DNA from: an uncultured Bryobacteraceae bacterium | GTDB taxonomy: Bacteria > Acidobacteriota > Terriglobia > Bryobacterales > Bryobacteraceae | DNA: 64,000 nucleotides | Reading direction: 5' to 3' | Assembly (NCBI GenBank): GCA_938003835.1 | Contig: CALKXJ010000008.1 | Location: 372,001 to 436,000 of the forward strand | Shown here: piece by piece, positions 41,639 to 58,997 of the stretch | How the letters are laid out: every line of letters starts with the position of its first letter | Position numbering within the stretch: position 1 is the stretch's first letter | Made by a program: the position numbers and the translations under genes | Notes under the pieces: model-generated | Databases searched by the model: none | Told to the model about the DNA's origin: nothing | What the model saw: only the letters and a program-made list of their open reading frames with translations

Positions 41639-42379
41639 TCAGCGCTCGAAAACGATCTTGCCGCCGACCAGCGTCATGAGCGCCTCGATCTGGGCGATCT
41701 CGTCTTCCGGACAGGTGAGATAGTCCTTGGAGATCACCACCAAATCGGCCAGCTTCCCCGGTTCGATCGAACCTTTCTTGTACTTCCTCTGCATGGTCCG
41801 TAGCGCCCAGAAGCGGTCCTTCTCGCTGAAGGCGCGGCTCCCCCGCAGGGGCGCCAGCAGCCCGGGTGCGCCGAGGATCAAGCCGGTCGGTTCGCCGCGC
41901 TCGTCCCGGACGATCTTGCCGTCGGCGGGCTCGGGCGTCTCGCGCGTGATTCCCAGCTCGGCGAGCAGCGCCGGGTTGAGCACCGAGGCGTAGCTGTTGT
42001 CCGTCATTACCCGCCGGCCGGGCGCCGCCCGGTCGAGCTCATACCGGGTCGGATAACGCCTCTCCTTGAGCCGTGTCGAATAGACCTTCGGCACGAAGAT
42101 CAGCCGGTCAGGTGGCAGGCGCGCAGCCTGAGCGCTGATGTAGGCGAGCACCTCCTCGATGGTGTGCATCACCGGCACGGGGCCGTCGCGTTCGCTCAGA
42201 GCCGCCATCTCCGGGTGGGTGTGGCTTTCGATGATGCCGGGCAAGACGGTCCAACCCTTGAGATCGATCTTGCGGGTGGCCGGCCCGGCGAGCGGGAGAA
42301 CCTCTTGCGTCCTCCCCACCATCGAAAATTGGGGACAGTACACTCTTTCCCCAATTCCACGGGCGAGGGGTGCAGACAC
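41639..42379 (-). pseudogene. Amidohydrolase (YtcJ-like) pseudogene, truncated and internally deleted
   Basis: The residual frame keeps the metal site segment KGWTVLPGIIESHTHPE and runs through FWALRTMQRKY. It then jumps directly to the family C-terminus KGSIEPGKLADLVVIS, so some 200 or more central residues are missing. The N-terminal strand region of the family is also absent. Instead, the frame continues through a 32-bp palindromic repeat (42327-42356), giving VYCPQF. Two independent lesions make it almost certainly non-functional as an amidohydrolase. Related intact proteins are about 550 residues. Confidence 0.75.
42327..42356 (+). repeat. Palindromic repeat copy 1 (direct orientation)
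   Basis: 30 bp with 9-bp arms AATTGGGGA/TCCCCAATT and centre containing AGTACACT. It lies at the 5' end of the amidohydrolase pseudogene, 24 bp from copy 2, which is inverted. Confidence 0.85.
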
Positions 42380-42380
42380 A

Positions 42381-42410
42381 AATTAGGGATTGAGTATACT
42401 GTCCCCAGTT
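42381..42410 (-). repeat. Palindromic repeat copy 2 (inverted orientation)
   Basis: 30 bp, arms diverged (AATTAGGGA/TCCCCAGTT), centre AGTATACT. It contains the TAA stop and the last residues of the gene at 42383-44188. Confidence 0.82.
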
Positions 42411-44188
42411 TTTAAGCCCAGCGCCCGCCGGCCGGCTTCAGTGAGGCGGCTCGAGTTCCACGGCGGATCCCAGATCGGCTCCACCACGACGCGCCGCACG
42501 CCCGGCACCCTGAGCAAGCGGTCGCGCACCGGCTGGCTGTTGCCGCCCGAGCCCCAGGCGTAGTAGCCGAAGCGCGGCCGCCCACGGTGGGGCGTCGTCA
42601 TCAGGACCTGGACCGTGTCTCCCCTGACCCGCAGATCGTAGATCAGCCCGAGATCGACGACACTGGCGTTTGCCGTATAGAGCTGCTCGTCCCGGCAGTC
42701 GGCCAAGGCTTCCCACAGTCGCCGCTTGTCGATGGGAGAGTCGCCCGCCTCGCCGGGGCGCGCCAGTCGCCCGGCGGGTGCTTCCGCACGCAAACCGCGC
42801 GGCAACTCACCGGCCGCCGTAAGCAGTGGGTTCATGAGCTGGTGCCGGATCCGTTCGACGCGCTCCGCGCCGCCGTCCTCGGCAAAGGGCAGCACGAGGT
42901 AGGCGTTCCTCTGCCGCAGCTTCGCGCCGGCGGGCAGAACCGAGTTGTGAAAAAGCGCCCGGCTCCACACCGGGCCGTGCCAGCGGTAGTGGAGCATCGG
43001 CGCACCCGTGTGCTTGAGCCCCTGGACGCCCTCGGCCGCATGCTCGAGGAACAGGCCGATGAACGCGTCGCGGCTCACCCGGTGAAAGAAGCCCACCGCC
43101 CAGAGATTCTCCTGGACCTCTTTCTCCACTGGGCCCACGCGCAGCTTGCCGTCGTCGGTCATCCAGACCGTGTCGGTGAAGGAGTAGCCCGAGAAGACCC
43201 ACTCGTCGTCGCGCAGGTAGCCGATCTCGATCTCCTGAAGCATCTCCATAGTGCCGTGCTTGAAAAAGTAGGGCGCCCCGGCCACGAAACGATATTCCAC
43301 GAAGATGTGCATCCGGCTTGGCGTGAAGACCGGATGGACGGGCGAGTGGGGAAAGCCCCAGCGGCGCACCTTTACGCACACCGGGCCGCGGATGACCTCG
43401 TAATCCGGGCAAGCGGCCCAGTTGGTGACGCGCATCTTCTGGAAATTGTTCGAGGTGACGTAATCGTGCGCCCAGTCGATGCACGGCGGCTCGCCGTGGC
43501 CCTCCCCTCCGGCGAACAGCTCCTGCCCGTGCTCGCGCTTGAGCTTCAGCCGCTCGAGCTGGCCCATCTGCGGCGAGAGCTTCGCCTGGTAGTAATCGTT
43601 CTCGATTTCGAGCGCATAGCCTTCGCCGGTGACTTTGAGGTCGGTGGGATAGTCGGGCAACTCGGCGTCGGGGTTGCCATAGAAGACCAGATACAGCGTC
43701 CGGGCATGCGCCGGGGCATCGGCCAAAAAGGCGAGGCGGCAGACGCGCTCGGCGCCGCGCCTCTGCTCTTCGGAGATCTGGCAGGGGATCTGGCGCAGGA
43801 CGCCGCTTTTGGGCTCGACGCGCGCCAGCCGGACCTCGCGGGCGAGGGAATCGGCCTGGTCGGCGGGAAAGGCCGCCACCAGCTCGACCGGTTCGCCCGC
43901 GCGCTCGAGCGCCACCGTCTCATCGAGGACGAGCACCTTGACCCACCGCCAGGGCTGGGCCCACCGCCGCCAGGGCTCGGGCAGTTGGTTGACGGCGAGG
44001 AAGTCTTGAGCCCGCAAGACAGGTTCGCCCAGGCTCTCTTCTTCCTGCTGGGCAAAGATCGCGGTGTCGCGGATCGAGGCCGCCAGCGCCCGCGCCAGCC
44101 GGAAATCCCGCTTCGCCCAGGCCTGTCCGAGCAGCTCGATCTTTCGCTCGAGACGGTCCGTCCTGTGCCAGTAGTCGGTCTCTTTCAT
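42383..44188 (-). CDS. Unknown protein: beta-sandwich-like domain fused to MIP18/DUF59 domain
   Basis: A 601-aa protein with two parts. The first 480 residues are not recognised. They are rich in aromatic beta-strand segments (EIENDYYQAKLSPQMGQLER; MHIFVEYRFVAGAPYFFKHG) like carbohydrate-active beta-sandwich enzymes, but lack an export signal. Residues about 488-592 match the MIP18/SufT-type DUF59 fold (ASVVDLGLIYDLRV; VPGVRRVVVEPIWDPPW), although the family's Cys motif is absent. The last residues (KTGDSILNP) and stop codon come from repeat copy 2, so the natural C-terminus was altered. It follows imuB by 56 bp. Confidence 0.7.
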   Translation of the reverse strand: MKETDYWHRTDRLERKIELLGQAWAKRDFRLARALAASIRDTAIFAQQEEESLGEPVLRAQDFLAVNQLPEPWRRWAQPWRWVKVLVLDETVALERAGEPVELVAAFPADQADSLAREVRLARVEPKSGVLRQIPCQISEEQRRGAERVCRLAFLADAPAHARTLYLVFYGNPDAELPDYPTDLKVTGEGYALEIENDYYQAKLSPQMGQLERLKLKREHGQELFAGGEGHGEPPCIDWAHDYVTSNNFQKMRVTNWAACPDYEVIRGPVCVKVRRWGFPHSPVHPVFTPSRMHIFVEYRFVAGAPYFFKHGTMEMLQEIEIGYLRDDEWVFSGYSFTDTVWMTDDGKLRVGPVEKEVQENLWAVGFFHRVSRDAFIGLFLEHAAEGVQGLKHTGAPMLHYRWHGPVWSRALFHNSVLPAGAKLRQRNAYLVLPFAEDGGAERVERIRHQLMNPLLTAAGELPRGLRAEAPAGRLARPGEAGDSPIDKRRLWEALADCRDEQLYTANASVVDLGLIYDLRVRGDTVQVLMTTPHRGRPRFGYYAWGSGGNSQPVRDRLLRVPGVRRVVVEPIWDPPWNSSRLTEAGRRALGLKTGDSILNP

Positions 44189-46222: not shown

Positions 46223-47044
46223 TTACTTCACCGCCGTGATGACCACCTCGCCGCAGTAACGCTTCAGCTCCGGCCTCCAGGCCAGCAGCCAGGCGTCCGC
46301 CTGCTCCAGTCCGCCCAACAGCCGCCGTACCCACGGCAAGGTAAACCGGCCGCGGAAGAGCCGCTTGGCCATCGCCAGCAGGTTCATCGGAACAATTTCC
46401 ACTTGCCGGAAGTGTCGCCGCAGAAGATCGATCTCGGCATCGGAAAGCACAATCCCCTCCCCCTGTTCGACCGGCTCGCGCTCGAGGCGCGCCCGCCACC
46501 GCCGCGCGGCATTGAGCAGGGGGTTGTTGCCCAATGTCTCGGCCAGCACGAGCTTGCCTCCCGGCCTGATGACACGCACCAGCTCGGCGAACGCCGCCGG
46601 GTATTTCAGCGTGTGGTGGAGCGAGGCGCAGGCGAAAACCAGGTCGAACTCACCGTCGGCAAAACAGCCCAGATCGCTGGCATCGCGGGCCACGCCTCGA
46701 ACGCGATCCGCGACGCCGCTGGCGCGGGCCCGTCGCAGCCCGAGCTCGATGGCGACGGGTGAGAGATCGAGCAAGGTCACGCTCGCGCCCTCGGTGGCCA
46801 GCAGCACGCCCCAATCTCCTGGGCCGCAGCCGTAGTCGAGGACGCTTCGCCCCTCGAGCGGTTCGGCGAGCAGGCTATCCAGGGCCGCGCGATAGAGGCG
46901 CCGCCGCTCGTAGGCCGGCGCCGCCGGGTTATCCATTTGGTCAAGCAGGACGACCCGATTGACAACGAGCTCGTGGTCCGGCCGCGCCAGGTGAGCGGCA
47001 TAGACCCGGTCATAGAACTCGCGCTCAAATTGGGGACAGTACAC
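46223..47044 (-). CDS. Class I SAM-dependent methyltransferase
   Basis: A 273-aa Rossmann methyltransferase: motif I SVLDYGCGPGDWGVLLA (about 70-86), acidic motif VTLLDLSPVAIELGLRRA, motif post-II FDLVFACASLHHTLKYPAAF, and IRPGGKLVLAETLGNNPLL. The only start in frame is a GTG inside palindromic repeat copy 3, so the first residues (MYCPQF) are repeat-encoded and the original N-terminus may have been lost. Substrate is unknown. It precedes imuA on the same strand but is separated from it by the imuA promoter. Confidence 0.82.
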   Translation of the reverse strand: MYCPQFEREFYDRVYAAHLARPDHELVVNRVVLLDQMDNPAAPAYERRRLYRAALDSLLAEPLEGRSVLDYGCGPGDWGVLLATEGASVTLLDLSPVAIELGLRRARASGVADRVRGVARDASDLGCFADGEFDLVFACASLHHTLKYPAAFAELVRVIRPGGKLVLAETLGNNPLLNAARRWRARLEREPVEQGEGIVLSDAEIDLLRRHFRQVEIVPMNLLAMAKRLFRGRFTLPWVRRLLGGLEQADAWLLAWRPELKRYCGEVVITAVK

Positions 47045-47058
47045 TCAATCCCCAATTT
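47027..47058 (+). repeat. Palindromic repeat copy 3 (direct orientation)
   Basis: A 32-bp copy with perfect 10-bp arms AAATTGGGGA/TCCCCAATTT and centre containing AGTACACT. It overlaps the first codons of the methyltransferase, whose GTG start is inside it. Confidence 0.88.
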
Positions 47059-58828: not shown

Positions 58829-58860
58829 AAATCAGGGACAGTATACTCTTTTCCCAATTT
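58829..58860 (+). repeat. Palindromic repeat copy 4 (direct orientation)
   Basis: A 32-bp copy with diverged arms (AAATCAGGGA start, TTCCCAATTT end) and a perfect AGTATACT centre. It lies 49 bp after dnaE2. Confidence 0.8.
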
Positions 58861-58965: not shown

Positions 58966-58997
58966 AAATTGGGGATTGAGTATACTGTCCCCAATTT
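58966..58997 (-). repeat. Palindromic repeat copy 6 (inverted orientation)
   Basis: A 32-bp copy with perfect arms AAATTGGGGA/TCCCCAATTT and centre AGTATACT. It is inverted relative to copies 4 and 5 and lies 23 bp before the exporter ATG. Confidence 0.88.

Follow-up and report, generated by a model that had tools for sequence, protein, structure and literature searches.

A gene joining a predicted beta-supersandwich to a DUF59 domain with arginine at the position of the loop cysteine

Annotation treats DUF59 proteins as Fe-S assembly factors. What does such a domain do at the end of a 601 amino acid protein whose N-terminal part matches no named family? The question is raised by a gene in the 64,000-nucleotide stretch of an uncultured Bryobacteraceae genome that we analyzed (the window). 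The gene (window positions 42383..44188, minus strand) is an intact ORF, and its translation begins at the first start codon past an in-frame stop. We conclude that it is intact and under selection from a dN of 0.22 and a dS of 1.11 relative to the orthologue at locus L001 (NG86; dS is near saturation) and from an excess of mismatches at third codon positions (rate 0.48, with 0.22 and 0.16 at the other two, over 592 codons). Full-length relatives are 47-72% identical in their best segment and tandem copies are down to 46% identical; together with the dN and dS values, these show that the reading frame is not a chance one.

The protein has four main parts, all encoded on the minus strand. A helical hairpin (residues 1-57, 44018..44188) is kept in the fused clade and is preceded in some relatives by a Tat or Sec-like start. 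It is followed by a first beta domain (residues 58-184, with strands from residue 82, 43637..44017), a predicted beta-supersandwich domain of the galactose-mutarotase-like type (residues 185-466, 42791..43636), and the DUF59/MIP18 domain (residues 486-592, 42413..42733).

An earlier note, made from the DNA letters, had recognized the fusion to a MIP18/DUF59 domain, and both sequence and fold bear this out: the C-terminal part is a true DUF59/MIP18 (PF01883) homologue and a whole domain. Pfam FeS_assembly_P (PF01883) is the only Pfam match in the protein, a weak one to residues 507-537, with 23.1 bits for the isolated stretch and 24.2 bits in frame (cutoff 23.5). The NCBIfam SufT/PaaD models match with E values of 4e-5 to 6e-10, at 24-39 bits versus curated cutoffs of 108-203, so SufT/PaaD membership is not reached by these models. 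Solved DUF59 proteins match the window protein at E 1e-9, and a profile of the C-terminal domain matches them at E 2.6e-12 to 2.5e-6; in the alignment, residues 486-592 span nearly the full length of TM0487 and TTHB138. The model of this part fits 3cq2 with a TM-score of 0.85 by target length and an rmsd of 1.9 A. The resemblance to SufT, PaaD, TM0487, and TTHB138 covers about 107 residues and includes the DLGLIYD and PPW...R stretches. The window family differs from these proteins in its Arg for the loop Cys, its fusion to a beta-supersandwich, and, often, an export signal.

Where the canonical (G)CP loop would stand, the protein has a PHRGRP loop (residues 533-538, 42575..42592, minus strand). 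The window loop reads MTTPHRGRPRFGYY, and R537 aligns with the Cys of TM0487 and TTHB138, in agreement with the earlier remark that the usual Cys loop is replaced. We collected 63 fused rows, duplicates included; one (L015) is cut off, and none of the 62 readable loops has Cys at the Cys position, where Arg occurs instead. The L016 loop has a Cys a few residues before that position. The pattern P-x-x-G-R-[PS] is found in 42 of 46 fused rows, with the Arg in all 42 and a His in 40; of the four rows missed, three read PHRGRP when inspected individually and the other is L015. The modeled loop blocks have a mean pLDDT of 61-66. Standalone DUF59 proteins carry the loop Cys in 26 of 29 rows, and the other three are uninformative (a fragment from L014 that resembles a second copy of the fusion, and two parts of an alignment that is split in L033).

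One further DUF59 match occurs in the window's genome. It bears the Cys (APNCPVAG), has a good PF01883 score, and its gene overlaps a NifU_N gene near an Rrf2 gene. Given this separate Cys-bearing SufT beside NifU_N, the fused protein is neither the only nor the likely working SufT of the genome.

The window protein starts at the conserved hairpin and has no export signal, so the earlier statement that a signal is missing holds for this protein; it does not hold for many of its relatives. Among 43 proteins with a complete N-terminal part, in which export motifs were read by pattern and by eye, an RRKFL Tat-type motif occurs in all 21 from Sphingobacteriales and a Sec-like start in two (L009 and L092), 23 proteins in total. 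The remaining 20 have neither, although the over-long frame of one of them contains an RR motif that looks like chance.

These observations bear on the possibility that the protein is still an Fe-S or metal protein, in which the domain helps to load a metal or cluster with His or Arg serving for Cys. The real DUF59 homology, the His in 40 of 42 pattern-matched loops, and the Tat motif in 21 of 43 proteins (Tat export would suit a folded protein) are all compatible with such a role. We nevertheless consider it very improbable. The Cys is gone from all readable fused loops, the window's included, while a SufT survey reports a conserved Cys in each homologue identified (PMC4982691). In addition, the N-terminal part has no invariant Cys (27 aligned rows of the fused clade), Sec-like starts are seen in two versions and no signal in 20 of 43, and the genome retains, among Fe-S genes, a SufT that has the Cys. 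The Arg in place of the Cys, the separate SufT, and the export motifs in 23 of 43 proteins together argue that this DUF59 domain has left Fe-S duty. Of the earlier suggestion of "a new scaffold or an enzyme with a borrowed domain", the same evidence disfavors a scaffold in the Fe-S sense, and the enzyme with a borrowed domain is the half that gains support.

The N-terminal part was called unrecognized, and it remains so: Pfam gives no match at E<=1 in the N-terminal 461 residues, and all NCBIfam matches to the whole protein fall in the C-terminal part. Neither collection offers a known family that matches this part and regularly carries DUF59. Among the architectures S3-S9 described in the cited sections of the SufT survey, no named partner domain corresponds to this N-terminal part, and the N-terminal motif of S2 is undescribed there (PMC4982691). 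Our literature searches found no report of this supersandwich-DUF59 fusion.

The predicted fold is more informative. The whole-protein model has a mean pLDDT of 82.4 and a pTM of 0.87, and residues 58-466 modeled alone give 81.7 and 0.86; low-confidence stretches include 228-240 and 397-404. By Foldseek and VIA-align, the N-terminal part is near the GH38 beta domains, PL26, GH174, LacZ domain 5, the rhamnogalacturonan lyase 3njx, and galactose mutarotase. With the whole model, VIA gives PL26 structures 5xqg (Z 18.5, 345 residues, 5.5 A) and 5xqo (Z 18.4, 335 residues, 4.0 A) and GH174 structure 8jd7 (Z 18.1, 257 residues, 3.6 A), where rows within about one Z unit count as ties. With the N-terminal part alone, GH38 structure 6lz1 has the top Z (19.9, 289 residues, 4.0 A), followed by 5xqo (Z 18.5, 328 residues, 4.0 A) and 8jd7 (Z 17.4, 259 residues, 3.9 A). 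The GH38 catalytic domain is missing from the window protein, and Pfam finds no Glyco_hydro_38C match in it.

PL26 exo-rhamnogalacturonan lyase (5xqg, 5xqo) shares both the first beta domain and the supersandwich (Z 17.9-18.5 over 328-345 residues), at 7-9% identity and with no profile match. PL26 enzymes have a third, helical domain, and their active site lies between domains. In the comparison with the N-terminal part alone, the match ends near residue 510 of about 900; what follows in the window protein, in the place of the PL26 third domain by sequence, is instead the DUF59 domain. GH174 endo-1,3-fucanase (8jd7, 9k1g) shares the supersandwich fold (Z 16.4-18.1 over 257-262 residues), at 8-10% identity; residues D119, E120, and E218 are listed for the GH174 enzyme Fun174A (PMC11943901).

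Several candidate links were rejected. PL26 membership by sequence has an hhalign probability of 0.4 against three bacterial PcRGLX_2nd proteins, with no Pfam match in the N-terminal part, and three longer proteins with partial PcRGLX_2nd matches gave nothing. The unfused supersandwich group described below likewise showed no link to these, and its best match among solved sequences is at E 0.09. A viral structure library gave 11 matches at E<=0.001, with TM-scores of at most about 0.3.

Some domains of the beta-supersandwich fold class are catalytic and some are not; the GH38 C-terminal region and LacZ domain 5 have the fold and are not themselves catalytic. The fold thus does not prove catalysis, and conserved residues become important. 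When 45 fused and 13 unfused N-domains are aligned with MAFFT, all 13 unfused proteins retain R326, E329, and R410, 12 of 13 retain Y299, and H231, W257, and G228 occur in all 11 unfused rows aligned there. A profile-guided alignment of fused and unfused proteins also shares R326, E329, Y299, and W257; H231 and R410 are not among the shared residues it lists, and hhalign places the His of L030, L048, and L049 elsewhere than H231. Since the two alignments disagree on H231 and R410, we regard W257, Y299, R326, and E329 as firm and those two as alignment-dependent. The H231 stretch has a pLDDT below 50 in both models, as does 397-404, just before R410, in one; the parts modeled with least confidence include those of most interest. 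Within the fused clade (27 rows, tandem copies included) there are many more invariant His, Trp, Tyr, Arg, and Asp residues.

Together with its unfused relatives, the N-terminal part forms an unannotated superfamily whose members share a charged signature. By hhalign, the fused N-terminal part matches two unfused groups with probabilities of 100 and 99.3. The first, unnamed Acidobacteriota supersandwich proteins (L060-L067), has a homologous N-terminal part (probability 100, E 7e-42) and keeps R326, E329, and R410, and H231 in one alignment; it differs in its signal-like starts (by eye) and in having no DUF59 domain that we could find. Genes for an M24 peptidase, an SSF symporter, or an aldo/keto reductase with a transglutaminase lie nearby. 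In L062, L063, and L067, the unfused gene overlaps the next, M24-type gene by four bases (assigned by Pfam in L063 and L066, by eye elsewhere), and in L062 an SSF symporter gene is divergent from it.

In a tree of 59 N-domains, of which 45 come from fused rows and 14 have no detected DUF59, a 100/100 branch has all fused rows on one side. The only other row there, L011_9852, ends at a contig end. On the other side are Acidobacteriota proteins of about 600 residues (L060-L067, L070) and the shorter L030, L048, L049, and L095. As judged from these sequences, the fused proteins appear to be one clade with a single origin, with the qualification that long branches divide fused from unfused rows, and the tree program cautions that joins of this kind can be spurious.

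The fusion recurs in other Acidobacteriota and beyond, in Planctomycetota, Sphingobacteriales, and records titled Verrucomicrobiota. A contig scan found 16 loci whose best segments are 47-72% identical to the query; 14 of them cover nearly all of it and two (L014 and L015) are cut by contig ends. Because only the first few candidates were scored in each genome, the genome counts are lower bounds. At least 43 of 101 genomes of relatives have some match; both domains are spanned in at least 14 places in 13 genomes, the window's own included, and most other matches cover the C-terminal domain alone. Among 200 genomes from the window's family, at least 25 have a match to the N-terminal part used alone. 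In at least 22 of those 25, again counting its own, the match covers 390 or more of the 407 positions and lies in a frame of at least 589 residues, from which length the fusion was inferred where no sequence was read. The same search matches at least one of 296 Bacteroidota and at least one of 240 Verrucomicrobiota (the centre genome itself in each), and at least five of 246 Planctomycetota, including the centre genome and one partial match. Across a spread of 396 Acidobacteriota, at least 203 have some match to the whole-protein profile (three candidates scored per genome), and among the matches listed only the window's own spans both domains. The distribution of the fusion is patchy. A match at G060:C75, in a frame that resembles a PQQ dehydrogenase, was dismissed as spurious on inspection by eye. 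Most comparison genomes are metagenome-assembled or without a name, and at least one record appears mistitled: the L003 protein, from a record titled as a Klebsiella pneumoniae MAG, is nearly identical to the L002 protein (record titled Akkermansia) and falls with a row whose title is Verrucomicrobiales, so L003 is probably a mislabeled bin. In both, a 435 amino acid protein with a Tat-like start (by eye) and no Pfam match is encoded directly downstream of the fusion gene (L002:3288-4595 and L003:9819-11126).

We compared the window's gene neighborhood with those of 28 other loci, some of which are the same genome twice, with flanks of up to about 8 kb, or none where a contig ends. The window gene lies between imuAB and an amidohydrolase remnant and has no carbohydrate gene beside it. 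The gene order with imuAB, which the earlier note proposed to check, was not seen at these other loci: none of their ORFs is a BLAST partner (E 1e-12) of the window's imuA or imuB. Clustering of ORFs from the 29 loci found no conserved operon, and the window shares just a TonB-receptor-type ORF with another locus. No one neighbor is general across the fusion loci.

Complete arrays in Sphingobacteriales have two to five tandem copies (five in L006) with gaps of 23 to 143 bases. By Pfam, L007 has SusC and SusD, then the tandem copies, then genes for an MFS transporter, an SDR, RidA, and a creatininase; the neighbors in L006 were also checked by Pfam. By BLAST, the MFS and SDR genes are kept in five loci (L006, L007, L008, L012, L013) and the creatininase in four, not in L008. 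Upstream in the L007 genome are genes for FecR, an ECF sigma factor, an FGE-sulfatase-type protein, and a sulfatase, and the same are seen by eye in the L012 genome. Farther upstream in the latter are a PQQ dehydrogenase and a class V aminotransferase (L101). The tandem Tat-motif paralogues of L006, L007, L008, L010, L012, and L013 (Daejeonella and relatives) mark a SusC/SusD locus that is an uncharacterized utilization locus.

Tandem paralogues behind SusC/SusD could also be binding proteins, and the fold occurs in regions of GH38 and LacZ other than the catalytic domain. Both points would suit a non-catalytic glycan-binding or scaffold protein, whose two domains bind sugar chains or organize partner enzymes without cleavage. 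We hold this to be rather unlikely, as R326 and E329 (with H231 and R410 in one alignment) are common to fused and unfused relatives, and the Acidobacteriota versions are mostly single, without signals, and without SusC/SusD nearby.

Outside Sphingobacteriales, the Acidobacteriota locus L052 has, near the fusion gene, genes for a RidA that shares 53% identity with the L007 protein, an oxidoreductase of GH109 type, a TIM-barrel protein, an enolase-type protein (MR_MLE), an MFS transporter, and an 810 amino acid protein with a sub-cutoff GH67N match (Pfam). Two long genes that look like paralogues lie in this cluster (L052:2429-14739), and one of them has the GH67N match. At L057, a gene for a 771 amino acid protein (sub-cutoff GH20b match) lies 56 bases downstream and a phosphoglucose isomerase gene upstream, all on one strand. 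An SDR there, 43% identical to that of L007, is about 3.9 kb away past other genes and was not counted as a partner. A TIM-barrel gene is directly upstream in L004 and L016, sulfatase genes are within the stretch in L097 and L058, and a GH127 gene is beside the unfused L030.

The small-molecule enzymes at L007, L052, L004, and L016 (SDR, RidA, enolase-type, TIM-barrel, creatininase) and the matches to the galactose mutarotase fold raise the alternative of a sugar-modifying enzyme that is neither a glycosidase nor a polysaccharide lyase, such as an epimerase, an isomerase, or a lyase on a sugar derivative. We find this quite improbable: the PL26 and GH174 matches cover more of the N-terminal part, and the SusC/SusD and sulfatase genes point to a polymer in Daejeonella.

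The explanation we favor, with a little better than even confidence, is a new family of beta-supersandwich carbohydrate-active enzymes that has taken over a DUF59 domain for a non-Fe-S role. The fusion is probably used in breaking complex sugars and not in building Fe-S clusters. This agrees with the earlier impression of a likeness to polysaccharide-active beta-sandwich proteins, which the fold comparison, the carbohydrate-type neighbors of several relatives, and the charged residues conserved beyond the fused clade all strengthen. The working part would be residues 58-466, the small beta domain with the galactose-mutarotase-like supersandwich, with H231, Y299, R326, E329, and R410 as the putative substrate-binding and catalytic set. 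The enzyme would most likely be a polysaccharide or oligosaccharide lyase and less likely a hydrolase; we infer this from the PL26-like fold, the conserved Tyr, Arg, Glu, and perhaps His, and neighbors of sugar-acid type (galactonate-type MFS, SDR, enolase type). RidA and creatininase are left unexplained by a carbohydrate enzyme and could point to a nitrogen-containing substrate, which counts against our favored explanation, as do the missing profile link to PL26 and the lack of a carbohydrate gene next to the window gene.

The DUF59 domain may have been captured once, with the Fe-S-related Cys exchanged for an invariant Arg, and may now serve the enzyme structurally or present the PHRGRP loop to an acidic sugar, outside Fe-S assembly. 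That the captured domain and its Arg form part of the substrate-binding or catalytic site of the new family is a tentative suggestion; the domain would then have a role apart from Fe-S chemistry, one that would be extracytoplasmic in Sphingobacteriales and some Planctomycetota. We predict that in Sphingobacteriales the enzyme is exported by Tat and that two to five paralogues act within a SusC/SusD locus. In Acidobacteriota, the enzyme without a signal may act on imported oligosaccharides.

A natural, clade-wide Cys-to-Arg swap offers a clean test of what a DUF59 domain can do without its Cys, and it cautions against naming such fused genes Fe-S proteins. The unannotated superfamily of the N-terminal part may hold new glycan-degrading activities.

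The window has two further features at the 3′ end of the fusion gene. The last nine residues (593-601, encoded together with the stop by 42383..42412, minus strand) are absent from aligned orthologues. This tail comes from a copy of a short repeat element, seen by eye near AATTGGGGACAGTATACTCAATCCCCAATT, which encodes the last codons and the stop. Copies are at 42332-42344, 42393-42405, 47033-47045, 58835-58847, and 58979-58991, and the 13-mer core has five matches (up to two mismatches) versus 0.24 expected. The adjoining ORF (41639-42379, minus strand) encodes a 246 amino acid amidohydrolase that matches just the initial 140 or so positions of one amidohydrolase profile and the final 45 of a second; it looks like an internally deleted remnant.
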